64,000 bases of DNA, taken from the NCBI RefSeq assembly GCF_000003815.2, contig NC_049997.1:411096-475095 (forward strand). The letters run 5' to 3'. A program made the translations under genes and the position numbers. The notes beneath the pieces are model-generated. The model worked only from the letters and a program-made list of their open reading frames with translations. It was not told the origin of the DNA and searched no databases. Positions 3,001 through 54,175 of the stretch are shown here, in pieces. This DNA comes from Branchiostoma floridae (lineage: Eukaryota; Chordata; Leptocardii; Amphioxiformes; Branchiostomatidae). Numbering within the stretch: the first letter of the stretch is position 1; every line of letters starts with the position of its first letter.

Positions 3001-6000
3001 GCCAAAAAAAGAAGATGTGATTTGAAAGAAAATAAGGATGCGCAATTCCGTATACAAAGCGTACTATTTAAGTCATCTGACCAATTCAAACGACCATTAA
3101 ATTGGCATTTTAGAAGCAACTTTTCGCACGCTCGCGTCACTAGCTCAGTGTGACAAGTTATTCAGAGTAATATAACCAGCTGCTGCCGCGCCGTGTGCCT
3201 GCAAAGCTGATGTGCTATGCAGACTGTGATTGTGTCGGCTTTACATTACACAGATACATTTTTTTGCCAAGTAGATTACTAACACATTTCCATCCTATTT
3301 TGGAGACTCCTAAGGACTTCTGGTATATGATGATATACAGTTGGCTGGGAGTGAGGACGCCGCATTGAGTAGATGGCAATTATTTTATTCTCCTTTTATG
3401 GTTTCATAACTTAAAGATTTAACCAACGCCATGTCAATGACCTGCATCTCCCCTTTATAGTGCTGTTTCCCGGTACCATGAAAAGGATTTGCGAGTTCCT
3501 CGACTACCAACTGTTCTTCCCTCGAGAGGCTACCGATTTCTTTAATGGAGTTATGGACCAACTCCTGTCTATGAGGGAGACTGATGGAGGAAAAGTATGT
3601 ATTCTAACACTTCATTCATTTTGGTTTCTTATAGGTAAACATATTTATCTCGAATTCTATTAATCCAATATCAAAGAAAGAAAGAAACATAAGGGAGTTT
3701 GTTATAATTAGTCTCTACCAGACTCCTATAGGTCGCTGGGAAAACCATAGAAATGGAACAAATAGAGAAGTAAGCCGGCCAGAGAAGTATGAGCCGGCTA
3801 GGGAACAGCTTGCGACCTACAAAGAACAGATCTGTGACAGAGTAAAGCCTTTTCTCTCACCTCTGTTTTCTCAGGGACGTGTAGACATGCTGCAGATAAT
3901 GATTGATGCTCATAAGGAGAAGGACGAGGACAGCACGGACGGAGCAAAGGCTCACGGGAAGAAACAACGTATGAATCGTACTAAAAGTATATGTTGCAAA
4001 TGGTGTAACTATTTGCCCTTCAATCTATCTTTACAATTTCAAAAGTGGTCGATCGTTATTAAGATACATATTTTCCATAGAACAAGGTTTTTCGTATACT
4101 TAATTTTTGCGGAGGCATTTTTATATGTACAATGGAATCAAATAATTGCAAATTGCTGTGTTTCCGGATTCCAGCTCTTACTAGAGACGACGTTGTTGCA
4201 AATGGAATCGGCTTCTTTAACGCGGGTTACGACACTGTCTCTATCACATTGTCCTTCCTGTTGTACCATCTGGCTCTCGATCAGGAGATTCAGGACAAAG
4301 TCAGACAGGAGACTTACCAAGTTACTGACGGGGAAGTACGTTATCTTGTGTATTTTATGTACTGTAAGCTATTTCATTGTGGCATAATACATGTACACTA
4401 CAATTAAATGGGTCATTTTTACCCATCTCTTCGTTCATGGCACTTTGAGAAAAGTACTTACACCAGGTACTAATCTGCAAACTACCAATTGAAACGTCGA
4501 TAAAGGTTAGACATCCATATTGTACGACATGCAAAATATCAATTGCTAAAGCAACTGGAACATGAATGATTTACGACTAGACTTAAATATTGATTAAGAT
4601 AAGTGAGAAGCAGCAATACATCAGACAATTTATATTTCTTACGTCTTTACAGTTTTCATCGTTTCTTCTAAAGGAAATCTATTATTAAGCCCACAATTTG
4701 TACCGAGCACAGGAATGCACTTCTTATGTGGATTTCCCAAATTACGAAAGAAGAGTTGGGCTGTTTTCTTTTGTTTCATCGTAAAATTGATGGTCAAGAA
4801 GAAGCATCCATAGAGCTAAGCAAACGTTTCTTCTACAGTCCCAGGTTGACTACGAGGCGGTGCAGAAGATGTCGTACCTTGAGATGTGTGTGATGGAGAC
4901 CCTTCGTCTTTACTCCCTCGTACCATTGTGAGTGCTTACGTTTGTGAAATGGTTAACGTTTGAATTTAACACTGTAGGAAAACAAGTAAATAACTCACCA
5001 ATCCAATTGGTAATTTGCCTCCAACATGCCTGCTGTGATACTGATGCTGAACTTCCTTAACCTATCTTGCGTTTTGCACATGTATAGTCGTGATAGTATG
5101 GTTTTGTATAGTCAATAAATATTCGCATTTGTATCGAATCGAATGGGGACACGAAAATTATTTAACACTAATGGGTATTTTGCAGTCTGCACCACAGTTA
5201 TTATTACTATATTGATGTTGAATACATCCGGAATAATTTGGCACCTTATATTTGATATATGATGCACTTCCTTCTTGTAATATGATTGACCATTGTTTTC
5301 TTATAGCCTTGTTAGGGTTGCTGCTGAAGATGTTCAGCTGAAAGACTTGACCATCCCAAAGGGTATGGGGGTATCTGTGCCCGTCTTAGCCATCCACTAT
5401 GACCCTGCACGCTGGCCAGAACCGAGGAAGTTCATTCCTGAAAGGTGAGTAGATTTATATCCTCATCGTTATGGCAATAACTGCAGGATTTGGAGAGTAT
5501 TTGTTTTAGATAGCAAGAAATGGCACATTGTATAATATCCATATAGCTACTATTTACCACTTTAACCCAGCACCCATTTACTATAGATTCAGGGGGCAAA
5601 CAAAATATAGTCTCACTAATAACTTACTACAATGGAATCTCGACACATTCTATATCCAATCCAGTCTCGTGTTTCTTATTGTGTCAATCTTCGCAATTGC
5701 ATTGAATTTCATTTTTTTCTACACATATTGTATTCTACAAATCGATTATTATCGTAACATCCCTTATCGTTAGGCAGAGCGGAAATATATATTTTTGTCA
5801 CCAACATATGCGGACCGCTTCTTTAAAATGAACAGATGTAATGGGCTCTTCACGTGATCCACTAGTAGTTTTCTGGAAAGTAATGGAGGGAGTCGTATTT
5901 ATAAAACTTGATGTATTAAAATATTATTAATTTACCTAAAGTTTTAGCCACCGATTGCTGTAACTCAAGAGAAGCTTATCACTTTTAAGACAGTAACATT

Positions 6001-26000: not shown

Positions 26001-27014
26001 ACATATTATATGGAATCACTAAAGTACACACACACACACGAGCATGCACACAAATGTACACACATGTACATACACGAACATAGTTACACATACACATACA
26101 CATACATATACAGTGTGATTGGAGTACAAACCTGCGCCCCCTTCCACACCACAATGGTAGGTCCCGGGAGCTGTTTGTTGACTAATGTTGTTCTGCGGTG
26201 ATACCCGTCAGCTGTTGTGACCTGGCTGATCTCTGTCAAGGTAAAAAAAAACATGAAGAAATCAGCAAAAGAACGTACTGGATGGTACGTGAAGGTGTAA
26301 GTAAGTCGTAAGTATACGTAAGTATTCTAACCGTTTTTTATACGTAAGTATTCTAACCGTTTTGTGACTGTTAGGTATGTGTACCAGGCTGTAGTGTGCG
26401 CATGCCTGCGTACCTAAAACTGACACAAAACGATTAACATTCGTATATGAGTTGCGCACTGTGCGTACGACTGTGTATGAAATAAAAAATGTCAAACCTC
26501 ATACCGACATGATATACATGCTCGTATGACTGCATATAAACCTTTGTCAATATGCCCAGCAAGGAAGACCCTTGTATAGAACTTTTGGCCATGGATTCGC
26601 GGGATTTGAGCCATGCGGCGAAGTGATCGCCCCCAAGCTGACCAAAAATGCCAAAAATGATCATGATTAAGACATTTTTTACACAAAAACGTATGACTCA
26701 TCTACGTATAAAGCACAGATGAGCCAAACAAAATGTCCATGTCCGAAATGTCACATCCTCAGTTTTGATACAATACAACTTTATTAGATATAGCAGTATT
26801 ACCACTGTATCAAAAACAAGAGTTCGGTGACCTCTTAATGGTGCAAACAAACGCCGTCCGTCTCACCTTCCTCCGACATGGCTGTCAGCTCACAACTCTG
26901 GTTGGAGCTATTGTACTTCCGCTTGCTGTAGACTCCCGTCAGACTGTCGATAATGACCGGGGTTCCCGCCTCTCGCTGCTTGTTGTACAGAAACATGGTC
27001 TCCCAATGTTCCAC
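14095..27014 (-). CDS. Laccase-type multicopper oxidase with C-terminal membrane anchor
   Basis: Expected to oxidise phenolic or similar donors at the cell surface while reducing O2 to water. Fourteen exons in transcript order: 27014-26867, 26232-26132, 25902-25757, 25339-25228, 22399-22320, 21838-21729, 21162-20988, 20328-20196, 19574-19447, 18556-18349, 18005-17873, 16668-16381, 15739-15536 and 14189-14095. All phases agree, giving 686 residues. Copper ligands are all present: HWHG and HWWHAH in the first cupredoxin domain, HPVHIHGH and then HCHIEIHQVEGM (type 1 Cys with axial Met) in the last. The laccase signature LINGKG is also there. The last exon encodes a glycine-rich hydrophobic helix (AAVGFIVGLGVGIIC) and a short basic tail, so the enzyme is probably tethered. 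The signal peptide and the first Cys-rich segment are upstream and unresolved; the exon at 27014 needs a phase-0 donor before it. Several introns carry inverted-repeat elements, SINEs and partial exon duplications. Confidence 0.93.
14684..14715. repeat. Perfect 32-bp palindrome
   Basis: The half-site TGTAACAAACGTTACC is followed directly by its exact reverse complement. The half-site recurs singly at about 15046-15061. It lies in the last laccase intron, inside a region of unknown origin (14340-15070). Confidence 0.85.
15836..16152. mobile_element. MITE with AGCTAAGGGCACAACCC terminal repeats
   Basis: The left end (AGCTAAGGGCACAACCC) and the complement of the right end are identical over the first 17 bases. 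The left flank is TAA. A second copy of the family, sharing internal words such as CAATCTTTTGGGATC, lies in PTGR1 intron 3 (41993-42318). The 317-bp element is in a laccase intron and has no coding capacity. Confidence 0.75.
16324..16362. repeat. (AACCA)n microsatellite
   Basis: Short tandem run of CCAAA-type pentamers, located about 20 bases from the 3' boundary of the laccase exon at 16381-16668. Confidence 0.7.
16812..17068 (+). mobile_element. 3' end of a non-LTR retrotransposon (LINE), 5'-truncated
   Basis: An open frame at 16821-17057 encodes a C-terminal piece typical of LINE ORF2 proteins: GHVLRLSDDRIPKVAL, then GKRKRGRPKSTWRRTV, then a Trp-containing end. It finishes directly at a (TAAG)n tail (about 17052-17068), a common 3' terminus of such elements. 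It lies in a laccase intron in the opposite orientation. The clade is not assigned. Confidence 0.8.
18965..19107 (-). repeat. Tandem partial duplications of a laccase exon end
   Basis: Two units of about 70 bp each resemble the 3' end of the laccase exon at 19447-19574 plus its donor. The distal unit still reads DTTVNCPF on the minus strand against TCVVVNCPF in the real exon. They have no acceptor of their own and are probably inert intron sequence. Confidence 0.65.
19113..19440. mobile_element. Long-armed foldback MITE with TACTA target-site duplication
   Basis: The 328-bp element starts TAGGGGTGCCTAAGCATTTG and ends with the near-exact complement. The arms continue as matching inverted sequence for well over 100 bp. 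Each arm is itself built from degenerate repeats of a word like GCACGAAyCnTATG. TACTA flanks both sides (19108-19112 and 19441-19445). The right end is 6 bases from the laccase exon at 19447. Confidence 0.85.
19575..20195. other. Laccase intron, no other feature seen
   Basis: AT-rich intronic DNA. I see no SINE head, inverted repeat or exon-like segment here. Confidence 0.5.
22640..22752 (-). mobile_element. tRNA-derived SINE head in a laccase intron
   Basis: The minus strand shows an A box (AGTGGCGCAATCGG, complement 22729-22742) and a B box (GTTCGAATCC, complement about 22686-22695). A short body follows containing CTTGTGCCCTCCTAGGAG. It is opposite in orientation to the related copy at 23261. 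Confidence 0.7.
23261..23420 (+). mobile_element. tRNA-derived SINE in a laccase intron
   Basis: A tRNA-like head with an A-box region at about 23271-23283 and a B box GTTCGAATCC at 23317-23326. The body then reads CACCGATCTCGTACTCTTGG and an ACTTT-rich tail. It shares head and body words with the copy at 1560-1862. Confidence 0.7.
24171..25217. mobile_element. 1.05-kb MITE with TAA target-site duplication
   Basis: The left terminus AGCCGGCTTTACAATTCATG pairs with the complement of the right terminus (AGCCCCCTTTACAAATCAAG). TAA flanks both ends (24168-24170 and 25218-25220), as in PIF/Harbinger-type insertions. A second copy of the terminal motif (CCCCCTTTACAAATGG) lies internally at 24279-24294. 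There is no transposase frame. The right end is 10 bases from the laccase splice donor at 25227. Confidence 0.75.
25652..25723 (-). repeat. Partial tandem duplication of a laccase exon 3' end
   Basis: Nearly repeats 25751-25820, the 3' part of the laccase exon at 25757-25902 with its donor. The copy still reads MSPGKSFTYR against ISPGESFTYR and keeps a GTATGT donor. Small length changes shift the frame upstream of that segment. It lacks an acceptor. Confidence 0.75.
26025..26115. repeat. CA-rich microsatellite
   Basis: Imperfect (ACAC/ACAT)n tract in a laccase intron. Frames through it are low complexity. Confidence 0.7.
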
Positions 27015-29751
27015 CTGGGGCAGAGCAAACACAAAATAATCTAGCATAGGAACACTTAAATGGTACAGAAACATAAAACTCACTGACGTTTCCAAGCAAT
27101 GGCCTTTTGATATTCTTTTACGTAATGGTTACCGCGTAACAGGATCTATCGGTCACTTCAAGGTTACATTGTAAGTATATGAAATAGGGCATACAGTCAA
27201 ACCTGCCCAAGACGACCACCCGGGGGACCGGAAAAAAAGCGGTCGATTTGGACAGGTGGTCGCTGAGAAGAGTATCGACTCAAAACATGCACGATGCAAA
27301 GTATAAATGGTTTCCGTTGTGTTTAATGGCAAATAGCAAGCACGCTGCACGCACGCAAAGAAGCGAGTTATCTAACGTCTAACGTCTAACGTATATCTCT
27401 AACGCACACTGTAAATGACATCTTTATTCTAAAATAACATCGTAAAGGCAGTCAAAATCCGACGCCAACTGGCCGATTTCGGCACAAAATCGCGCCAGTT
27501 ATCATCAAAAATCAATGAAAACCTCAATTTTCAAAATAATGTGGTCGTTATGGGTCCCAATTTGGACCGGTCGCGGTTGCGTTGGCCAGGTGGTCGTTGA
27601 GAAAAGGTCGCTTAATGCTTATGTAAATGGGAAAAAAAATCGGGACCAAGAAAAAGCGGTCGAAATGGCCGCTGAGAAGAGGTGGTCGCTCGGGCATGTT
27701 TGACTGTATTTTCTTCCTTAGTCGCAAACGTCATAATTGAATCAAGCTCAATCCTAACTAGCTAAAGGTGAGGACTAACTGAACAAATATGGGGAGCAAG
27801 GTTTACGTACGGGCCTCGGGAAATTTCTACCAGATTTAACGTGCGGCCTTTAGACTTGAGTACATCGACAGATTCTGATATAAAAGGAATTTAAAATCAA
27901 TGTACTCACTCGATTCAGGTGAAAATGTTTCTAGCCATCGAAAATAAAATGGTGGTCCCGTCTTTGAGGAGAGTCACACATCGAGCACTAATGTTTTAGT
28001 AAATTGTAGAAATGTCCGGACAAAAATAGTGCGAAAACAAGGTTCCGTGAAACGAACCCACCAACAATATTTTGACATCTGTGTCACTGTCAGAGACAAA
28101 AAAAGCTTAAGATCGAGCCAAGTATAAAATAAACAGTGTTCTTGACCTTTTCATAAGGTGAGCCAGTATTTTCATTAGGGTCGTGAACCCGGAAGTATGG
28201 TTACACTGGAAATGTCTGCACAAATCCCACCATTTCTTTACGTCTTTCACTATCTTTAGTACTCAAAGTCATTCCGCAACAGACTCTGAAGGATGTGACC
28301 TCAAAATGAACCCTCCGAGACAAACCCTTCCCTTACTTGGTGATCGTACTGTGATTTACACGGCACCTGTCGTGGTAGAATGGAGTGTGCAAAGTTAAGC
28401 TTTATCCTCATACCACGTACACCTGTTTGAAAAACGTTATGTACAATGGTGGAAGTAACGTGAAGGATAAAAGTAGAATCTTCTTTCTCTTCCTAGCAAG
28501 CGTTTGTCTGAAGTATGCTTGTGGTGTTACAAGCCCTTAGTGTGTAGTATTAGAATAACAGCGAAACAGTCTTACCGTCTAGTTGAACACGTACAGGTCC
28601 TGGGGCGGGGGGTAAGGAACGGGGACGGAGTTAACAAACGTATCCTGTGTAAAAACAGTAGTACATAGGACCGACAATATAACAAGAATCTTTATCGACA
28701 TGCTGGTCATGGTTTAGACACGTAGCAATACGTTGATACCAAATATTCATTCCAAATGTAGTATAGAAACGCAACCGGTTTCTTGCCACGGTTTCGTTCC
28801 ACGAAAAATCGCCCGTGCTTTGTGAGGTCGAAACGCCTCCAGACGCCTCGGATTCCTCGAACGAAACCTTGAAGGTATGAAAGGGGTTTTGGGATCTCTT
28901 GATACTTATACCGCATGCCCTGATTAGAAAGAGGGTGTGGAAGGGTTCCATCTGTGTCGGGATTATATTTGTTGTGTCATTACATCGCTATCAGCATAGC
29001 GACGTTGACTTATGAACGTTGTGAGAAAATATACAGTTGTATCTTATGAAGACCCTAATTAAATGATACTGTTGGGTTTGATCTTTACTCATGTGGTGTT
29101 ACATGAGTAAAGATCAAAAGACGCCACACACACAAAAATCAAGTAGGTACAAATTGACATTTTGATTCTTGAGATAAATTGTAATTTATGGTTCCTCTGT
29201 AAGAGGCCATGGGTAACTTGAAGGTTACTGGTAGTCAGTTTGTACTCCTTAGATGTGCACACCATGCACTTCTGTCTGCCCTTTGCTGCTATGTAAATAC
29301 CAATGAAAGCACATGTTAATTGCTTCGAGGGGTGGGGGGTTGAAGAAGTAACGATAAAGAATGGTACAGGGTAGAACAACAATGATTTAGTTTGACATTT
29401 TTTACAACATAGTCATATGTCCAATGTTTCCGGGTAAGACTAAGAGGGCATAAACACAACCACACTCCCACCCCTCTTCCACCGTGAGTTAGTCCATCCC
29501 AGACAAAAGCGGCACGGATACAAAACACGCCGCCTTTTGTATTATACCTCTGGTCCATAACAAACCATAACAACAGTGGGAAAGTGACAATTTTCATGTA
29601 GCTAGATCTGACTTTACACCTTAAGGGGAGGTTCCATTTGATATCAAGGGGTGTATATAACTTCTGTCAAATCGGACCACCCGGTGACTGGTGACAGCTA
29701 AACTTGTACAACACAGCGAAAGTGTTTGATATACAGTTAAACATTTACATG
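27015..29751. other. Probable 5' part of the laccase gene, exons unresolved
   Basis: The laccase signal peptide and first Cys-rich exon should lie on the minus strand between here and about 31 kb. One exon-like segment on the minus strand, about 28637-28570, has a good acceptor (TTTTACACAG) and reads PPPQDLYVFN before a stop. That resembles the laccase region preceding VEHWETM, but no donor gives the required phase. Apart from the MITE listed separately, I see nothing else. Confidence 0.3.
27194..27706. mobile_element. Mariner-type MITE with TA target site
   Basis: Begins CAGTCAAACCTGCCC and ends with the near-exact complement (GGGCATGTTTGACTG), flanked by TA on both sides (27192-27193 and 27707-27708). 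Length is 513 bp. Internal words such as GACCACC and GGTCGCTGAGAAGA recur in both arms. It has no open frame for a transposase. Confidence 0.8.
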
Positions 29752-30200
29752 TGATCACCTCTACATAAGGTAATTGCTATACAATCAAACCTGTAACAGT
29801 GACCACCTCTACATAAGGTCTACCTCTACATAAGGTCTACCTCTACATAAGGACCACCTCTACATAAGGACCACCTCTACATAAAGACCACCTCTACGTA
29901 AGGACCACCTCTACATAAAGACCACCTCTACATGAGGACCACCTCTACATAAAGACCACCTCTACATAAGGACCACCTCTACATAAGGACCACCTCTACA
30001 TAAGGTCTACCTCTACATAAGGTCTACCTCTACATAAGGACCAGCTCTACATAAGGTCTACCTCTACATAAAGACCACCTCTACATAAAGACCACCTCTA
30101 CATAAGGACCACCTCTACATAAGGACCACCTCTACATAAGGACCACCTCTACACAAGGACCACCTCTACATAAGGTCTACCTCTACATAATAAGGACCAC
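29752..30200. repeat. 17-bp minisatellite (GACCACCTCTACATAAG)n
   Basis: About two dozen head-to-tail units with a GTCTACC variant interspersed. The outermost units are preceded by ACAATCAAACCTG-like words resembling the mariner-type MITE terminus at 27194. Identical abutting units without spacers rule out a CRISPR array. Confidence 0.9.
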
Positions 30201-32229
30201 TATGATATACAATCAAACATGTTGACGGGTTTCTTCTGGTCCATTGAGTGTTAGATATAGGCCGGTCAAGCTGCTATAGATTACATCTAACTGTTCCTTA
30301 TTATTCCCCTCACAAATTCCTGTTTAGGTTAGAGGAAATATCTTTCCCCTAGGCCCTTTAGACATGGCGAACTATTTACCCAGTCATACAGTACATTCAG
30401 CCTATGTGCACAATACCACACAGAGTTTTCTTTTTTAAAACGACGTTCTTAAGATCAAGGATACGGCACTTAGAAAAAACAAACAAATGCACAGTGTATT
30501 GCCGTTTCTTACCTAAGGGTCACTCGCAAGTGGCAATAAAATGACAATGGTAAACAGCATAGATAACTACTCTAGTAGTAAGTATAAATCTTATGATAAA
30601 ACGCATTTTATTCGGTTTGACGTATTTTCCTGAAATAACATTACGTAAGCCAATCATCAAGCCGTGTGTGTTATTTTAATGATTTGCTTATCATACTGTG
30701 GTGGTCAGAGGGGCAACATCACAAAATTTTCTTTCCTTCGTCGCTCGACATGGTGGAAGTATATCTCCCCAAACAGAAATGCTTGCCACCACCCTCTTTT
30801 GTATATGTATAGAATATAATAGAAAGATTATACTAGGGGAATTCTGGTGAGTCATACAAAACAAACAGTCGTGTGTAAACGAACAGTGAGGTCACGGATT
30901 AGCGCAAAGTCTTGTCAAGTGCGTGCATTACCACGGAATAGAATGTAAATTATAAGAACACGTTGCGATTGACTGCCCTAATTCTCTGTCACTGAGACTG
31001 TTGGTTCATAAAGTACAGTCGGGGTTCAAGCAGTGCTGTAGAAATGGTACGATCAACGCTAGACGACACGAGTGGGTGTGATGACGTCATATCCGGAGGG
31101 GTAAACCAAGCCCTGACGAGGCAAACCAGTTTTGGACTCGTCTGACTCACATTTACAGTGTGCCTCGCTATTGATACTCTTGTTACAACTAAAGGTACGT
31201 GTATCGTTCATTTTACTTTTTAATAGTCGTTTCGATACATGTACTGCCAAGAATACAACCAAATTATCAATGAATATAACCTGAGTTTTAATTCATTAGC
31301 GCCGAATGGAGCACGACAATTACATTCCGACAGTGTCACTTCCCTTGCAAAACAAGGTGGCTGCTTAGAATAAACGTAGTTATTTTTCTAACAGCAAATA
31401 ATGTACATGAAGTGTACAGTGCAGAGACACATTAGAGTATGTTATCATACTGTATTCGTACTGTTTAAGTATTAAAGTTGCTTCATTACTTCATTACAGA
31501 AAAGGTGGGGTTATTTCCATAAAGTAGGCTTTCCTTTGGAGTTTGAAGTGGTTGACACTTATTTTTGAATGGTTATTAAGATGACCCTCGCGACTTTCTG
31601 TGGGGGAAAACATTGTAAGATTGAAATTGGGGATAGTACTTTAATGAAGACTTGTTTCGGTGTATTTTAACATACTAACTCATTGAGAGGTCTAACAAGG
31701 GTACCTGCCGCTATAGCACAGCACAGTTCTAAAAATGTGACATAAAAAAAACAATGACTCACCGGGAGTTTTTATGCGTAGGCGGCGGAAGCCAACATGC
31801 ACCCGTGTTTAAAACTTGCTTGTGAACGCTCACAGGATGGTTAAGTAGTTCAAGGAAAATAAAATTTCCTTAGTTGCGTAAAATTTGTGACTTAACTGAA
31901 AACATTTGTAAATTAATTGCTATGTGCTCATTGGTGGGACCTAGGACAAATTGGCATCGGATTGTGACGTCACAGAAATGATTCATAGCCGCACTGGTTT
32001 ATGGGTAGCCCGTTCTGTGTCACCAAGATACGTTGCCGATTGGTGGCAACAAAGAGATGAATAAAATCTTTCAGAAAACGAGGAATATGCAAGCCACTAC
32101 GGCCATGCTTTAAGTGCAGCATTATTTCCTTTGCCAGAATAGCTAAGGTTATGTCTTAGGCTTGTTCGTCTGTTTGTTCTTTCGTCTGTATAATAGATCC
32201 ACTATTTTTATCGTTTAGAAGACCAGAAG
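30201..32229. other. Spacer upstream of the RHIM gene
   Basis: This region probably contains the promoters of the diverging laccase (-) and RHIM (+) genes. No TATA box or 5' UTR exon could be assigned. A short minus-strand open frame at 31059-31262 has no recognisable motif. Confidence 0.35.
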
Positions 32230-35200
32230 ATGTCTACGGCAAAGGAGATAGAAAACGAAAGTGCATTTGTCGGTAAGAACAATGTCTTTTTAATTCACCC
32301 TGTATCCCAATGGATCAAATAATGATACCCCCTTACAGTTTCTGTTTATTTAACGAACCAAGATTGTTTGTACATAATAATAAAAGAGACAGTTTACACA
32401 TTTACATTAATCTGAGTTGGTAAATTTCATTATATGAAATCTAAACTGAAGACTAAAAAATGAATTTTCGACTGAGTTCCTCAGTTGCTTTAACTGCATG
32501 GCACAGTCACTCTGGACAAGCGACTTTTTTATGTGTGACGTCAGCAATCGGTCAAAGGTTGTTGATATTGAAAAGTCGTGTAAATAAAACTGTTACATTT
32601 CAGCACCTTCAGACGTTTCCAAGCGAAACTCCAAAGACATAGACCTCTCTGCTGCACTTGCGTCCATTCAACTTACAGGGAAGGAGCGGACAGCTTCATT
32701 GGAATCTGGATACGCAACTGGTAAACACAATGTACTTATATAAGTTATGATACACTCCCTTTTTAAGCAAATTATCAACCCCTCTGTCACAAGATGGACC
32801 GACGATATTGTTCCGATGTTGCTCTTTTAATCCATGAAAGCTCTAAATCTACAGAGCAGGGCCACACACTGCCAACCTCTCTGTCTCCTCACCCCCTACT
32901 GCCCAGTCATGCGCAGTAGGCCTTGGGGATGCCTAAAACTATTACAGTGACTCTGTCACACCCTCATTAAGTGTACATACGTTGCGTTTAGTAACGCATT
33001 TATAAGCAGCGGCACCTGTGTGTAGTTCAATGTGAACCAATCAGAATTGTCCTGCGGAAGGTGACAGACTGTCACTAAAATGTCAATTGATTGAAATACT
33101 TTCTTGTGTACACACTCACTAATATAATTTGAGTTATCAAAATTGCATCGAGGTGTTTAAAATTTGCTTGTCCTTAGAATTCTTGCAGAGTGAATCCCGT
33201 TGCCACCAAATGCTCAAGGGTCTTCCTCATAGTAAATTTTGATGTTAGATGTGCAACGTTTAGGTGTTATAGGTCATTTAGAGTAACAACAAAATAGATT
33301 AATCCATAAGTAACTTTATTCTTCATCCTATTTATATACATTGAAGTAAGGTTCTCTATGCACAACCAGGGGGTACTTACTTCTGTAGCGCCACCTACGT
33401 CGGCTTTAAGTAGCAGCAAGAAGTAGTTTCCAGTTATTCTACCCTGATGATGGTGTCTGAAAGACATCGAAACGTTGGAAGTAAGTGCTCCCTTGCTGTG
33501 CCAAAAGAACCTCACTATAAAAATATTAGGTACATAATCTTCTTCTGCACCAGAAAGCTCCAGTCGCCCCACCAGTGGCTTTGATTTTGACGGAGCGCCC
33601 CAGCCCTCTTCCGGCCCGACAGTGCTCAGCGCATCGAGCTCCGGCAACTCCACTCAACCCACCATCAACTACTTCACTGTGCAGATAACGGGAACAGCAA
33701 CCAACGTGCAAATTGGGTCTAACAACATCATGGACATTACCAAAGCTAAGGGTGACAAGAGGATGGTGCCACTTTCAGAGGGTAATAACGTTAGAAATAT
33801 AATATGTCAGTCTATTATTAAGCAAAGCCATATCTACACAATTTAAGGGGCAATTTATTATCTGTAAGGAAAAATCCATGCCGTTAGTGCTGTAATTATT
33901 TTATTCACTTTGTTTGATGCAACATTTCCCACGGAGATAACAAGACATATAACACATCTTCAAATTCTGGACTTTACGTTATAGACGTTAAAGACACATG
34001 GCCAAAGCAATAAAAATACATGACCACAGCAATAAAGATACATGACCACAGCAATAAAGATACATGAACACAGCAATAAAGATACATGATCACAGCAATA
34101 AAGATACATGACCACAGCAATAAAGATATATGACCACAGCAACGGGTCGTAAAATCCAGATAATCTGTGTCGTTCCCCGTCTCTGCTTGAATCGGATGGC
34201 GGGCTCGAATCCAAACTGATTCCAAATCATTGCATCATCATCATGATTATTCCAATTGCTTGTTCCGTAAAGTTCAGTCCTCTTGCATAATATTATTTAC
34301 CAAGACAAATGATCTTTCGAGCTAACCAATAACAGCTATTGTACAGATTTCATAGCGACCCTCGTCTCAGTTCACGATCCGGCGGGGGAGGAGCTGATGT
34401 TCCGGCGGCTGGCTGACGAGTCGTACCGGCGGGAGTACGTCAGGAGGATGAGGGAGCAGGACGTGCCGAGCACTATCGCGGAGGTCGGGCGGGGATGCAT
34501 ATTCCTCAACCTACAGGTAGAGAATGGATGTTACTGCACCTTACTGGGTATTATCCCCACAGTTCAGGTCCTGGTTCAAATTAGTTGTAACTGGAAGACG
34601 CCGGATTGGATCAATGGTAAGGGCATCTCGATTGAGACTAAAACCGTCTTACAGAAGATATGTAACAAAGGGGTCCCTTGTTCGAGTACCTCGGGCACCT
34701 TTAGACTAGCAACCCTTCCATCTAAAATTATACATAAACAGCATGGAAACTTAGTGATTTATATGGTACCAGAGTCTTCAATGTAAACAACAACAATATG
34801 TACAGGACTCCACTGCACATCCTATAGTACTTTTCGCAACTATACATCATCATCATCACCTGGGCTTGCTGGTTGCACGAATGAACATGACTCTCTAGAT
34901 CTCCCCCATCCATCCCTATCCTCAATCCAAACCATAGAAAAAAGATAAAACTACTTAGACTAGTGTTAACAAAAAGGGATGGGGTAATTTTGAATGTTGT
35001 ATCTTATGTACTGTTCGTTATCTATTTGAATTTATATCTTTTATTGTGAAAACAAGTTAGTAAGAAAACCTAGAAATATCGTCATTCGACCTGTCCTGGT
35101 CTTTGGAAGGCAGCTCAACATTTAAGGTAGACATACAAATAGATTGGTTGATGACACACAAAACATAATAATGTTATATCTTGTATTGGTTTTATAAAAT

Positions 35201-36933
35201 AGTAACTCTCTGACTATGCCCACTGGGCCTCATCTTACTCAATCTCCAGGTGGAAACCCCTGCGGCTGCGCAGAAGCTGCTGGAGATGTGCCGCGACGGA
35301 AGTTACCAGCGGATCCTGATGGAGACATTCCTGCCTGAGTACGTCACTTCCGGGAAACCCATGGAGATGAGTCTGGCCGTGTCGGTGAAGACCCCGGATG
35401 TCCCACCAGTTCGGGTGACCATAGTGGAGGAAAGTGAGACCGGTAAATGGCTTTGTAAAAACACATTTACAACGTTGCAACTTGTAGAAATATCTAGAAA
35501 TCAACACTGAGATTGCTTAGGTAAACGATTTCTAGAAAATGACTGAGTGAGTGGGTTACAATCAAATTAGTGCGTGAGTGAGTGAGTGAGTACGTGAGTG
35601 AGAGTGAGTGAGTGCGTGAGTGAGTAATTTTTGAGTACGCGAGTGGTGAGTAAGTGAATCATTGAAAGTGACTGAGTGAGTGAGTGTAGAGCAAATGAGT
35701 ATTGGGTGATTAGCTATTAGGTAGTTTATAAAGATTGAGTGGTAATTGAGTGACAGTGTGAGTAGCTGTGACTAAGTGGGAGAGTGAGTGTGTGAGGGAT
35801 TAGAGATAGAGTGAGTAATTTTGTAGTGCGTATTGAGTGGGATATGAGTGAGAAATGAGTGAGTGTGTAATGTATGTAAATAGCTTGATGGGCGGGTACG
35901 TCAATGGTTTCAAAGCATGGGTATGAATATGACTTTGTTGAAAACCTAGACCCACAGGACAAAGTTACGGTCAAGACTGACCAGCTACAAGCGGTGAAGA
36001 CATTATCTGACAGCCGGAACTCAGACGGAATCTCCTCAGTGGATGTCCCCGTCCCTGGTACATCCACCACCCGAGCCAAGTCACCTCAGCTGCAGCGGCT
36101 TGTAGCTACTGAGGGCCGGCCGAGACAGACCAGCTCTGACTCTGGTCTGGGCTCTGCTGACTGGGACACTGACGGTGAGATACGAGCAAATATCATGGTT
36201 ACTCCAAATTTTTTACAAGCAATGACTGTTTTCAAAGGCAAGGTACATACCTCCAAATTTTCGACAGCTGACAGTCCATTTTGTTCACGGAGAATGACCT
36301 AGTTTCGATCTCGCGAGGTCTGGGTTGCGTAGATTATCTGCCCCCTCCCCTCGCCTCCTTGCGGAGTAGGGGTAGGTAGAACTTGGGCAGCTCTCCACAA
36401 AATATCATGGTATATTTCAGCAGAGATGTAACTCGCCTAGACAAAAAATGTTATATTGTTTAGGTATTTTCATTTAGGCTTTCTTGAAGTTTATTTGCAA
36501 AAAACTATGCTATTTGAAACAATTACATTGCATCAAGTAGGTAAATGCCTAAATAGAAATGTTCCTTATTCACAACAGGTACATATATTAGAAAGATTTA
36601 ACAGGCAAAGATTCGGCGACAGTCTGTTATCTTTCTCAGGTTTACTTTGCACCTTCACTGCTGGCAAATACAAATGGGCATTTGTGCATATGACTAAATT
36701 TCAGTTTGACAGTTCAGTAGAAAATGGCAAATTATCAGTCAAAAACAAAACAACAATTAAAAGAACATCCTGCAGTCGCTGATTAGCAAGGCTGAAATAT
36801 TAGGTTTGACGTCATGAAATTTTCATTTGAAAATGGTTATCATTTCACTTCATTTACAGAAGAGACTTCTCGATTCAAGTTCCCTGTCAAGCCGAACACT
36901 TCCAGACAAGCACAGAAGAAGCCGCCATTGTAG
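32230..36933 (+). CDS. RHIM-containing protein with TRADD-N-like domain
   Basis: Seven exons: 32230-32272, 32604-32720, 33554-33781, 34347-34516, 35250-35442, 35950-36174 and 36860-36933. Phases are 1,1,1,0,1,1 and total 349 residues with stop TAG at 36931. Residues about 93-114 contain a RIP homotypic interaction motif with core VQIGSNNIM, matching the (V/I)Q(V/I/L)GxxNxM signature of RIPK1/RIPK3/ZBP1-type proteins. RHIMs form amyloid-like signalling filaments in necroptosis and NF-kB pathways. Residues about 130-245 (exons 4-5) show a strand-helix-helix-strand pattern: RGCIFLNLQVET, then LLEMCRDGSYQRILMETFL, then MEMSLAVSV. This resembles TRADD N-terminal-like adaptor domains, an inference from pattern only. 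The tail (251-349) is Ser/Pro-rich and includes DSGLGS. There is no kinase or death domain. The start codon is the first ATG of the exon and has A at -3. Confidence 0.85.
33361..33520 (+). mobile_element. Dispersed repeat, Penelope-like terminal fragment (candidate)
   Basis: Shares a long near-identical block (GAAGTAGTTTCCAGTTATTC, then CCTGATGATGGTGTCTGAAA) with copies near 47575-47700 (minus strand) and 47755-47850 (plus strand). The Penelope-like assignment is inferred from the hammerhead-like core. There is no coding region. Confidence 0.5.
33394..33478 (+). ncRNA. Candidate hammerhead ribozyme motif in a dispersed repeat
   Basis: Contains CTGATGA (33444-33450), a 6-bp stem II (GGTGTC / GACATC around loop TGAAA) and GAAA (33469-33472). 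Stem III would pair CGTTGG with CCTACG at 33394-33399, followed by the cleavage-site-like TC. These are the conserved hammerhead core elements in the permuted order open at stem III. Stem I is weak: GG/CC, then TAG/CTA after a bulge. Similar repeats elsewhere are Penelope-like element ends. It lies in intron 2 of the RHIM gene. Confidence 0.5.
33990..34145. repeat. 22-bp minisatellite in RHIM-gene intron 3
   Basis: About seven units of CATGACCACAGCAATAAAGA plus TA, diverging at the ends. It lies about 200 bases upstream of exon 4. Open frames across it (rich in Tyr-Leu-Tyr-Cys-Cys on the minus strand) are repeat artefacts. Confidence 0.85.
35570..35875. repeat. Degenerate (GTGA)n microsatellite in RHIM-gene intron 5
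   Basis: A long imperfect tract of GTGA/GAGT tetranucleotides ending about 75 bases before the acceptor of exon 6. Confidence 0.85.
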
Positions 36934-39391
36934 AAGGTAAGGAAATAAAATACACTCTGGCTACTGATTTCTGTGTCACAGATGTGCAAGGTTCCATTTT
37001 CTAATTTACATGTTCCATTTAATTGTAGTTATGATGTACATTTTTTAATTATTTTAGAGTAAATCGGTTCATTGTCATCAATACTATCAATACCTTCCCG
37101 AAGCGTTACTAAAAATTTGAAAGCTAATGGGCGCCGAAAAAAGGTGGCTTTTCACATAGTTCAAAACCCTAGTCTCTTTTTGATACTTTATGAGTATCAT
37201 AAGTTCGTTTTTAATCGAATATGTTATTATGCCAAACAATAATCCTTAACAAGGCAAGGTTGTGCTAAAAAAAGATTCACATATATAGTACTAACTCAGA
37301 CACTGGAAAGCGGCATTCATTTTGCTGGTAAGCATATTTTGTTGGAGCTTGCAGAGCTAGAGATACAACTAGAAATACCCTGTATCATTTCATTTTATTC
37401 TTTAGCCTCAGGTCACTATCAAAAAGACACAAATTCTGCGATGATACTAGTTTCCGGCGCGTATACGGTCATTGCGTTTTGAAACGGTCGTTGCTTTTTG
37501 GCTTGTATTACCACACTCTGTCACTTAAGTTTTATAACCACGATCTGTCCATACCGCGATGTTTCATGTCGAAATCGATTAGTGTTTAAGGTTTAAGCTT
37601 TGGGGCTGGGTTTCGAAGAATTATGTTACAATCACGGTTTTGTGTTATAGTTATGATTAAAATGTTGCTTTATTCACGACTTTTCTTTCTTGTCAGCACC
37701 AAATGATCTCACATAGACCAGCAAGCGATATGGCGACAGCAGTCGCAGGCAACGACCGTTTACGAGACATGCATGGGTCGAGATGACAACCTTGTCTTGG
37801 AGGGAGGGGAGGACAGAGAGATATCTTATCTTCGAATGTGCTTTAAGCTTTAGTAGTTAAGAGCTTTTCATTCTTATCTTTTTAAGTATATTGTTTTCTT
37901 AAATGCAAAAGTTAATGACCATCATAAACAGAGTTTTTTTCTTTTTGAGTAACTTTTTATTATAATGAACGTTGTTATAACACAAAGTGAACAAATTCTG
38001 CATTCTTTTGTATTGACATTTATGTACTTCATCGGGTTTCAATAGTTTCTACAGATTGTTAAGTCAATTAGAAATAACTTACTTATGTACACAACCTCAA
38101 TTTCTCAAACGTTTTGACAGCCTGTTTAATGTGTGGAAGACACTAGCCAGACAGTTGTTCGTATAGCGGAAACATAATCTAGTGCACAGAAGAAAACTAT
38201 GCTCATGTATTTTCTTTCTTTGATACTTTATAAAGAATCCTTTTTCTTGATTCATCAGATGAGATTGTACAAAATGTTTGGTTAACGTTAATACTTTAAG
38301 GCAAAAGATATCAAATTGTACCAGACATAAAGCTAGAGACTACCTATTCCTACGTGCTTATATATTGGTAAATGGTTCGACTTTCATACTTATGACATAT
38401 GTAATATCATTATCAGTTTACTGTACACCCAACTACATTTTGTATAGCTATTATTCTTCCGCCAAATAATAGAAATTTCACATTATGATGGAGCTTCCAA
38501 CCAGTGAAATATTAAGCAGAACATTAGTTGCATAGTTTATGTAAAAAATACAGGATTATATGATCAATAAAAACTCGCAAGATTTCGCAAAATCATGCGG
38601 TCGCTTCTTTTATACATTGCGATTTTCCTATATATTTGTAGTGTCTTAATTTTCTTTTTGATAAACGAGTTATTATTAGTACTGAGCTACTAAGTTTCTG
38701 ATAATAATATGCATGTCATACGACCCCTTGCGGTCCTTTGAAATTGCGCAAGGGATGATAGCATATCTCAGGAACCTTGCAGTTTTCCCATAATGCACAA
38801 GAGGGCGCTTATGACCACAGTAGTGATAGCTGATTCTTAATTAGGCCTTTTTCCCTAAAAATAATCCATTCATTTATTGCAGTTGCTGTACAATCTTATG
38901 CTTCAGTAGGTGATTTCGAAATAATGTAGACATCCAATGTCGTTTATCGTTATCTGAATTGCTCTAAAACATCCCCTTTATATGGCGGTTTAAGATCCCA
39001 ATGTTCAGTGCTAACACAGCGTCAATTTTGTAAAGTCAACATTTCACTTCACGCTTCTTCGAGCAGTGACACGACCTTTTGGTCGTGCGAATGTTTTGGT
39101 GCATTGTTTGCCTTAGGCCATCTTTAAAAACAGGTTTGGTGAAGCCCCCGGCTAAACAGTACATACCTGTGCTTAATTTTAACAAAGGACGCAACGAGTC
39201 AACCATAAACAAGTAATACGAGCATGCGCTGCTGTACTATTTATGTAAAGTGGTTCACGTTACAGTGTGTCCGGGTCACGAACACAGTGCAGGTAAGGTA
39301 TCAAGACACACGAGAGAACGTTCCTAAATACTATCCAGATTTGAGAATCAAACAAAGACTACGGCGTCTCTGTTGGACGTCAAGTTCGACA
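36934..39391. other. 3' region of the RHIM gene and PTGR1 upstream region
   Basis: A GT donor (GTAAGG) directly follows the RHIM stop codon, and an acceptor-like TTTCTTGTCAG ends at about 37697. The 3' UTR may therefore be spliced. A candidate polyadenylation signal AATAAA is at 38566-38571. The PTGR1 promoter should lie just before 39392; no core motif was identified. Confidence 0.4.
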
Positions 39392-47511
<8,120 letters not shown>

Positions 47512-52198: not shown

Positions 52199-52400
52199 TA
52201 GCAAATGACTGCATGAACTGTGTTCCTCACATGCAAACACACAAACATTACCAAAACCAGACTGTGACCTGACAGATGACCTGGTAGCATCCCTGGTCAA
52301 TCAGAATTTCATGCTTGTCAATTTAGACTTTGTCCCCAGTGTAAGGGCGTCCTCCAGCAAACCATCTGTATAACAGCTGTGTCCATAGATATAGGTCAAA

Positions 52401-54175
52401 ATGAGATATATAGAGCACAGTTTATTTCTGTTAATATCTAAATACAATTACACTAACAAACGCCTGTATGCATGCTTCGTAGATTTTAAAAAAGCATTTG
52501 ACAGTGTCTGGCGGGAAGGTCTTCGTTATAAATTACTGAACTCAGGAATAGGCGGAAAATTGTACAGTGTAATAAAATCCATGTATAGCAACCCACAAAC
52601 ATGTGTTAAAACGCCAGCTGGTCTGACACCCCTATTCACAACAGACAGAGGCGTAAGGCAGGGGTGTAACCTCAGCCCTGCCCTTTTCAATTTATTCATA
52701 AATGACCTGGTAAAAGATTTAGACAGCCCTGACTGTGCCCCACCCTCCCTGCATAATCTACTTGTATCCTCCCTGCTATATGCTGACGACGTAGTGTTGT
52801 TTTCAGAATCTGAAACAGGTTTACAATGCGCTCTGGATAAACTCCATGCATTTTGCGAGAAATGGAAACTTCAGGTGAACCTAAAGAAAACCAAAGTTAT
52901 GATTTTCAACAAACTCGGACGAATCTTCAAAAACATGAATTTTACTTTCGGTAAAGATACTATAGATATTGCAACCTCCTATTCTTACTTAGGCCTGACG
53001 TTATCCCCCTCAGGTACCTATTCTCTAGCAAAGAAACAACTGTCCTTGAAAGCACGCAAAGCCATTTTCAGTCTGAAATCCCTGATGCATTCATCTCTGT
53101 CTCCAAAGGCTCTGCTCAAACTATTTAGTACATGTATCAAACCTATTATATTATATGGTTGTGAGATTTGGGGTAAAGCTTATTCAGATGACAGTTGCCC
53201 AGCAGAAATTACACAGAACCGTTTTTGTAAAAATGTTCTCGGTGTACATAGAAATTCAAGTAACATAGCTAGTAGAGCAGAGCTTGGAATGTACCCAATA
53301 GACATAGATATATCCATACGTACAGTTAAGTATTGGCTGCGCCTCAAACAGTTGGACTTCTCAACACATCCCTTACAAGTAGACGCTTTACTCTGTCAGC
53401 AATCTATACCGAATAACAGCCGTAAGAAATACTGGTTACAACACGTAAAGGAAATTCTAGACAATACTGGTTACTCTTACCTATGGAACTCTATGAATTC
53501 ACAGCTAGACAATAAGCATATATGTACATCGTTAAGAAAAAGGTTAGAAGATATATATATCCAGACATTTTCTCATAGACTGTCCACAGATAATGGTAAG
53601 TTAAGATTTTTCAAGAAACTAAAGAAGGGATACTCAATGGAAACTTATTTAACGTTACTAGATAAATTCGAGGTCAGATCGGCAATGTGCAAACTTAGAA
53701 TTAGCGCCCACCCCCTTGAAATTGAGAGAGGGCGGTACAAAAAGCTACCTGTGGGCGAAAGAACCTGTAACCATTGTATGGCAAAACCGGTGGAAGACGA
53801 AATACATTTTATTTCTAACTGCCTCTCTAACGATCAGGAAAGAAAGGAGTTATTTGAAGAGGCATGCAAATTCCACAAAAATTTCCAAACGCTTACCGAC
53901 GAAAACAAAACTATAACGCTGTTAACGTCACATAACCCACGCATCATAGAAAAAGTGGGACACTTCGTCTTCCACTGCTTCCAGAAAAGAAGTCAAACCC
54001 TAAATACGTAGATTGTAGCTCTCAGCAGTCCATACCATTGATAGAATAGTCACTCGTTTACACTTGTCACCATTGTTATCTATACCAAAGTATTTCATTT
54101 TATACATGTTTATTATATTCTCTGTATGTTTCATGTTGCAATTAGCCCTCGGGCAAGAACTTGCAAATAAACTTC
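52401..54175 (+). mobile_element. 5'-truncated LINE with open reverse-transcriptase frame
   Basis: A continuous 536-codon frame (52401-54011) covers the reverse transcriptase from motif A onward: FVDFKKAFDSV, RQGCNLSPALFNLFIND, then YADDVVLFS with the catalytic Asp pair. The thumb follows, and then a C-terminal Cys-His motif (CNHCMAKP...HFISNC). After the stop there is a 150-base 3' UTR with AATAAA at 54166-54171. The endonuclease and the start of the RT are missing, so the copy is a dead-on-arrival insertion. The absence of stops suggests it is young. The first Met is arbitrary. The general type is CR1/I-like; the clade was not determined. Confidence 0.9.

Follow-up and report, generated by a model that had tools for sequence, protein, structure and literature searches.

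The genome of the lancelet Branchiostoma floridae, searched here as 513,431,437 bases in 431 contigs, contains on contig C19 a stretch of 64,000 nucleotides (G000:C19:411096-475095; this whole stretch is called the window below) in which a seven-exon gene encodes a protein with a RHIM in front of a TRADD-N-type domain. On sequence grounds the gene is a member of a RHIM–TRADD-N family, whose parts are known and whose architecture is new, and its product is read below as a probable adaptor.

A splice-site reading places the exons at 32230-36933, with GT/AG sites throughout, and yields 349 residues and a stop codon; the seven exons rebuild an intact frame, which bears out the coordinates and the complete product given in a preliminary description of this DNA. 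The frame is kept by an exon-6 acceptor in which cctag directly precedes AC, whereas the alternative acceptor ccacag breaks it. Introns 1, 2, 3, 5 and 6 are in phase 1 and intron 4, which lies inside the domain, is in phase 0, so that both introns flanking the RHIM exon (introns 2 and 3) are in phase 1, as had been described. GC content is 42-62% in the exons against 33-40% in the introns, and the coding sequence as a whole stands at 56%, with 64% at third positions. A Pfam scan of the window protein at E <= 10 lists no kinase, TIR, Z-alpha or death domain, in line with the earlier statement that kinase and death domains are lacking, and no Death exon is seen by eye among the listed frames downstream of the gene, where no family scan was made. 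The earlier reading of the gene, a RHIM joined to a TRADD-N-type domain without kinase, TIR, Z-alpha or death domain, is supported by the sequence comparisons that follow.

Table 1. Exons and sequence features of the RHIM–TRADD-N gene, in window positions.
Feature	Position	Strand	Description
Exon 1	32230..32272	+	Start codon, residues 1-14; peptide MSTAKEIENESAFV, identical in the C19:510 kb and 785 kb copies
Exon 2	32604..32720	+	Residues 15-53, linker-like; splice sites conserved in 3 other C19 copies
Exon 3, RHIM exon	33554..33781	+	Residues 54-129; flanking introns in phase 1; layout common to relatives
RHIM segment	33655..33741	+	Residues 88-116, QPTINYFTVQITGTATNVQIGSNNIMDIT
RHIM core VQIGSNNIM	33706..33732	+	Residues 105-113
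Exon 4	34347..34516	+	Residues 130-186; TRADD-N-type domain, first part
G179-C180, u(S/C) turn motif of TRADD-N	34493..34498	+	G-C-I invariant in 7/7 rows of alignment A1
Exon 5	35250..35442	+	Residues 187-250; TRADD-N-type domain, second part
Exon 6	35950..36174	+	Residues 251-325; variable linker, then conserved tail
DSGLGS	36138..36155	+	Residues 314-319; in 4/4 C19 copies compared
Exon 7	36860..36933	+	Reading-frame end, stop codon TAG

The RHIM of the window protein

Residues 105-108 (VQIG) conform to the core tetrad consensus (V/I)-Q-(V/I/L/C)-G (PMC9444067, in excerpt), and VQIGSNNIM conforms to the extended pattern [IV]Q[ILV]GxxNx[MLI] quoted in PMC9440496 (in excerpt). Over all six frames of the window, which amount to about 128,000 codons, VQIGSNNIM is the sole match to [VI]Q[VILC]G..N.[ML]. 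In the fibril core of human RIPK1, I529, Y531 and I533 belong to strand 1, I539-G542 to strand 2, and N545, M547 and I549 to strand 3 (PMC12575786, in excerpt); RIPK1 residues I539, Q540, I541, G542, N545, M547 and I549 correspond, with identical spacing, to V105, Q106, I107, G108, N111, M113 and I115 of the window protein, and the hydrophobic residues upstream of the core are, by eye, shifted by one place. RHIM is also the top Pfam model for pieces of the window protein that contain the motif, with 14.4 bits for a 35-residue peptide (E 0.028) and 13.1 bits for a 76-residue piece. With a family RHIM model, built from the motifs of 7 relatives, the window peptide scores 14.6 bits, above 5000/5000 shuffles by a narrow margin (best shuffle 13.6), and outranks 1829/1829 other open-reading-frame pieces of the window.

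A RHIM–TRADD-N family in the lancelet genome

Residues 130-250, searched at the protein level against the whole genome, gave 13 matches. Those on C19 fall on two exons in the window, two at 348-349 kb, two at 510-511 kb, one at 785 kb, and a 140-base fragment beside a gap at 299.9 kb (C19:299870), for which neither exon 4 nor a RHIM exon was found in the 8.8 kb read upstream. Distant relatives on four other contigs share 39% (C135), 39% (C148), 35% (C11) and 34% (C235) identity with the window domain. A match at C5:25758004, with E 0.55 and three stops, was taken as chance.

Of the nine loci, eight, counting the window, have RHIM-like motifs ahead of the domain; the exception is the C19:299870 fragment. 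The motifs occur as pairs on C135 (VQLG/VQIG), C148 (VQVG/VQVG) and C11 (VQLG/VQIG), and as one clear motif (IQIG) and one weak motif on C235. A genome scan with the Pfam RHIM model at E <= 10 gave 7 matches, five of which lie in C135, C148 and C11, within RHIM-bearing open frames of 245, 282 and 456 residues, and the top three matches genome-wide belong to the RHIM–TRADD-N family; matches on C15 and C10 lie in frames of just 41 and 36 residues and were set aside. Against the Pfam cut-off of 20 bits, the genome scan puts C135 (21) and C148 (20.2) over and C11 (18.7) under, and scans at the level of the single locus put C135 (25.4) and C11 (21.3) over and C148 (17.5) and C235 (13.8) under. The RHIM-model and domain searches, run separately, converge on three of the relatives (C135, C148 and C11), in which 250-500 bp separate the nearest motif from the domain that follows it. 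Furthermore, in all five lineages the printed sequences, read by eye, have a RHIM exon followed by a phase-1 intron and a TRADD-N exon. The pair recurs within one genome.

The two halves of the domain on C235 lie in different frames (L030, minus strand, ~4613-5040), so only the second half was used in alignments. This member may be decaying, or the assembly may be in error there.

Homology of the second domain

PF20694, TRADD-like_N, is the best of 24,736 Pfam models in 4/4 distant relatives, with E-values of 0.0039 (C135), 0.12 (C148), 0.0022 (C11) and 0.23 (C235). For profile comparison a template set (set B) was assembled from 6 lancelet DEDD-like loci together with human DEDD and DEDD2. 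Alignment by hhalign of a profile of the five-member family with these 8 DEDD2-type TRADD-N sequences extends over 73 columns with P 7.7e-5 and an HHsuite probability of 61.7, and none of 200 column-shuffled controls was as good (best score 17.9 vs 32.0). The window sequence alone gave P 0.0049 against the same set, and in hmmsearch with the set B template the window domain reached 8.7 bits, compared to at most 5.2 in 2000 shuffles. Homology of the window domain to TRADD-N is shown, at the level of profiles, by these comparisons.

TRADD-N folds as an RRM-like alpha/beta sandwich. Its 'uS' motif sits in the turn between beta2 and beta3 (PMC8195603, in excerpt). In the profile alignment the G-C of the family is in register with the G-C, G-S or G-A of the DEDD2-type set; it is the cysteine form of the 'uS' turn motif.

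Other assignments were tried and set aside. A cyclophilin (Pro_isomerase) model on the window domain, the sole match that Pfam lists for the window protein, stays sub-threshold (E 0.017-0.16) and is unlisted in the four distant relatives at E <= 1. Queries of the PDB by sequence, made with the full protein and separately with its RHIM peptide and its domain, gave short weak matches only, the best of which, an oxidoreductase chain, has E 0.026 across 38 residues. A search of viral contigs with exon 5 found no relative.

The genome scan with PF20694 gave 98 matches at E <= 10, of which 80 pass the cut-off, two by virtue of neighbours in frame; the RHIM family appears there as C11:2599468, sub-threshold at 18.7 bits and E 0.71. 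Half of the TRADD-like_N matches (50/98) form a dense array of 0.6 Mb on another contig (G000:C17:18.30-18.90 Mb), from which 21 fetched loci are of a non-DEDD class. One fetched locus, L032, closely matches human DEDD.

Copies on contig C19 and selective constraint

The copy at C19:510 kb is complete and gap-free, with 7/7 exons and splice sites at matching places. Compared with the window gene it has 0 nonsynonymous and 2 synonymous changes in residues 88-116, 6 and 11 in residues 130-250, and 1 and 1 in the tail (291-349); the corresponding counts for the linkers are 7 and 2 (1-87), 2 and 0 (117-129), and 15 and 5 (251-290). Taken together, the islands (RHIM, domain and tail) have 7/14 nonsynonymous/synonymous changes and the linkers 24/7 (Fisher p 0.0034). 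For the copy at 348 kb the figures are 4/8 in the islands and 23/8 in the linkers (p 0.032). Residues 88-116 carry no amino-acid change in two of the three C19 copies and a single one, outside the core, in the third, and dN/dS of residues 130-250 is 0.21 and 0.16 in two comparisons. Modules and linkers of the window protein are, by these counts, under unequal constraint.

The same copies bear on whether the gene is a pseudogene or an artefact of misassembled exons, for which the gaps on the contig, along with its several close copies, could be cited. Open frame and splice sites are, however, kept in the gap-free 510 kb copy, and the dN/dS values of the domain count against it as well; a pseudogene or misassembly is scarcely credible, and the earlier opinion that the gene is no pseudogene stands.

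Positions 26371-43947 of the window are repeated in inverted order at G000:C19:340000-360000, with ~81-96% identity in the larger blocks and several gaps. Either a segmental duplication or a second haplotype placed wrongly in the assembly could account for this repeat.

Neighbouring frames and other features

Ten neighbouring frames of the window were scanned with Pfam, and contain a P450, a link domain, multicopper oxidase (two frames), PLAT (two frames), an ADH_N_2-type oxidoreductase (two frames, sub-threshold) and a reverse transcriptase, with one frame lacking a match. The reverse transcriptase frame (52395-54008, 538 residues, RVT_1 at 101 bits) looks LINE-like by eye. Downstream of the relatives, and on the shared strand in each case, lie a Death-like open frame 1.6 kb from the RHIM–TRADD-N exons of C148 (L014:7192-7554), which scores 18.7 and 17.6 bits with Pfam Death in two scans, under the cut-off of 22.6; a DUF294 nucleotidyltransferase with many TPR repeats on C11 (L013:1-2709, minus); and a RING/B-box/NHL frame of 829 residues on C135 (L012:1204-3690, minus). 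Because of the frame on C148, the missing death domain may be peculiar to the branch of the window gene.

Within the gene, the end of intron 4 (35226-35255) reads in frame as GLILLNLQ, a near-copy of the end of exon 4, GCIFLNLQ (34493-34522), and GT follows each stretch. The C135, C148 and C11 domains have no intron at this position; the single-exon domain lies at G000:C135:204879-205247 (minus) and at C148:163221-163592 (plus). Intron 4 looks like a gain through tandem duplication of a piece of exon. Three bases past the stop codon lies a strong-looking donor, AAG followed by GTAAGG, with AATAAA just behind it (36934-36949), pointing to a possible 3'UTR intron or alternative end. A 22-bp tandem repeat occupies 33989-34142 within intron 3, and a 17-bp minisatellite lies upstream of the gene at 29801-30190.

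Evidence against the assignments, and alternatives

A number of results weigh against this account, and several of them concern the RHIM. The window RHIM is under the cut-off of PF12721 (14.4 vs 20 bits), is unlisted for the full-length window protein at E <= 10, and is absent from the genome-wide Pfam RHIM matches at E <= 10. The description of the motif as a textbook RHIM holds, accordingly, for the published patterns and the RIPK1 fibril residues and not for the Pfam score, and a RHIM above threshold is found in the relatives C135 and C11 rather than in the window itself. Taken literally, the refuting condition of the preliminary description, the lack of a RHIM hit above threshold, goes against the window RHIM, whereas two relatives pass it. 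Since short motifs arise randomly, VQIG might be a chance occurrence in the linker of a TRADD-N protein, with no RHIM function. What makes this very improbable is that RHIM-like motifs stand before the domain in each of the five lineages, with two exceeding the Pfam cut-off, and that residues 88-116 are near-unchanged among the C19 copies while the linkers vary more.

For the second domain, window residues 130-250 have no TRADD-N match in Pfam (PF20694 and PF09034 included); proof for the reading of the window gene comes from its relatives, whose own TRADD-like_N scores, at 11.7-18.2 bits, are all under the cut-off of 23.7. Set B was picked by eye among 30 loci fetched of the 98 TRADD-like_N matches. 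The remaining 24 lancelet TRADD-N loci (set C), 21 of them on C17, gave no significant hhalign match (P 0.58), nor did human-only templates (P 0.36 and 0.77), and the C235 half-domain, at 3.6 bits in hmmsearch with the set B template, fell under several shuffles. Single-sequence alignment of the window domain was not significant with TRADD, DEDD2 or DEDD, shuffles being as good in 158/1000, 393/1000 and 349/1000 cases; for DEDD2 vs TRADD themselves the count is 38/1000. Both the sub-threshold Pfam scores and the selection of set B by eye would suit a protein with a real RHIM and, as second domain, some other small alpha/beta domain that resembles TRADD-N in pattern alone. The first rank of TRADD-like_N in 4/4 distant relatives, the shuffled controls and the invariant G-C turn motif argue the other way, and we regard such a domain as unlikely. 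The TRADD-N-like domain of the preliminary description is upheld by the profile comparison, the G-C motif and the top Pfam family of the relatives, though not by a Pfam match of the window itself.

The selection counts carry reservations of their own. In the 785 kb copy, which has lost exon 4 in a gap, the contrast is not significant (islands 2/5, linkers 7/4 nonsynonymous/synonymous; p 0.33), and the boundaries of islands and linkers were chosen once the alignments had been inspected. In addition, some of the C19 copies may be haplotypes that were left unmerged, in which case the counts may mix alleles and paralogues.

A proposed adaptor and its place among known systems

The favoured reading, held with reasonable though not high confidence, is that the window gene encodes an intracellular adaptor in an innate-immune or cell-death pathway of the lancelet. 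It is drawn from the established roles of RHIMs in amyloid-type homotypic assembly and of TRADD-N in recruiting, and it is in this sense that we infer the location, amyloid assembly, partners, pathway and degron of the protein. The RHIM (~residues 88-116), in an N-terminal part that is linker-like, would form polymers with the RHIMs of other proteins or take its seed from them; candidate partners are its own relatives, each with a single or double RHIM, and the RIPK1 with a RHIM that is reported for lancelets. The TRADD-N-type domain behind it (~130-235) would act as a recruiting module that offers a binding surface. The signal may be ended by way of the conserved tail, whose DSGLGS would let a kinase and a ubiquitin ligase limit the life of the protein; this hexapeptide resembles the beta-TrCP phosphodegron, with its consensus DSGxxS, and would be a putative degron here. 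In vertebrates, the module recruited by TRADD-N is the MATH domain of TRAF2. MATH does not serve TRADD-N as a partner in every case (PMC8195603).

The main rival is a decoy or brake. Lacking both kinase and death domain, such a RHIM protein would not pass a signal on but would cap or titrate the RHIM fibrils that active relatives form, examples being a RIPK1 homologue or a protein of the C148 type, which may have a Death domain. The absence of any enzymatic or death domain from the Pfam listing of the window protein speaks for such a role, as does the make-up of C148, with two RHIMs, a TRADD-N exon and a Death-like frame downstream; viral decoy RHIMs have been described (PMC7375649, in excerpt), and the multi-copy C19 group would suit a dosage role. 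Constraint, however, covers the TRADD-N-type domain and the tail besides the RHIM, which exceeds the needs of a bare RHIM decoy, and we consider the decoy role possible but doubtful.

Compared to RIPK1/RIPK3, TRIF and ZBP1, the proposed adaptor is alike in the RHIM core, in the flanking Asn, Met and Ile and in the linker-like setting of the motif. It differs in that those proteins carry a kinase, TIR, Z-alpha or death domain, whereas the window protein lists none and has a TRADD-N-type domain instead, and in that three of its distant relatives carry two RHIMs. With vertebrate TRADD (TRADD-N and Death) it has the TRADD-N-type domain in common, and C148 may have Death as well; the window gene departs from TRADD by the RHIM in front of TRADD-N and by the lack of Death. 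Vertebrate TRADD is not known to have a RHIM. Proteins of the DEDD/DEDD2 clade and their lancelet expansions resemble the family in domain homology, in the G-[S/C] turn motif, in invertebrate expansion and in the position of TRADD-N at a module junction, but their N-terminal partner is a DED where that of the window family is a RHIM.

RHIM-like motifs outside vertebrates are present in IMD and PGRP of Drosophila, and a 2014 paper by Kajava is, by its title, concerned with metazoan RHIMs. The motifs of Drosophila, fungi and bacteria are more divergent and have other partner domains. As in the present family, the RHIM-like amyloid motifs of fungi and bacteria (PMC7889193, in excerpt), like those of Drosophila, occur in proteins other than RIP kinases. 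A RIPK1 homologue with a RHIM is reported from Branchiostoma, and parts of lizard, lamprey and zebra mussel RIPK1 activate NF-kB in a RHIM-dependent manner (PMC12119088, in excerpt); given that report, animals of this kind probably have a partner in a RHIM-bearing RIPK1. RHIM proteins are placed in Branchiostoma by the excerpts of both PMC9444067 and PMC12119088. A survey of TICAM found the RHIM not conserved in the lancelet class (PMC9440496, in excerpt), and PMC9573974, as far as its excerpt goes, concludes that RIP kinases acquired their RHIM functions in vertebrates. The large expansion of TRADD-N in lancelets is documented in PMC8195603, the main text of which has 0 occurrences of RHIM, RIPK and necroptosis. 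Among the titles and abstract openings searched, no RHIM–TRADD-N protein was found described; the supplementary tables of PMC8195603 lay outside that search, and the combination may therefore stand uncommented in print.

More tentatively, the family may preserve, or have re-created, a chordate adaptor of the order RHIM–RHIM–TRADD-N–Death (the C148 type), in effect an amyloid-seeding TRADD, from which the death-less forms of the window type would be derived. If so, TNF-receptor signalling would have its TRADD branch and its RIPK1 branch joined in a single chain by a C148-type adaptor, and kinases would have shared the centre of RHIM signalling in early chordates with an adaptor of the TRADD type.

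The pairing of RHIM and TRADD-N-type domain suggests that amyloid-based signalling in immunity or cell death has a branch as yet uncharted. The family would show that an invertebrate chordate uses amyloid signalling with an architecture outside the kinase, TIR and Z-alpha set, and its short peptides and single-exon domains offer material for direct tests of how necrosome-type signalling arose.

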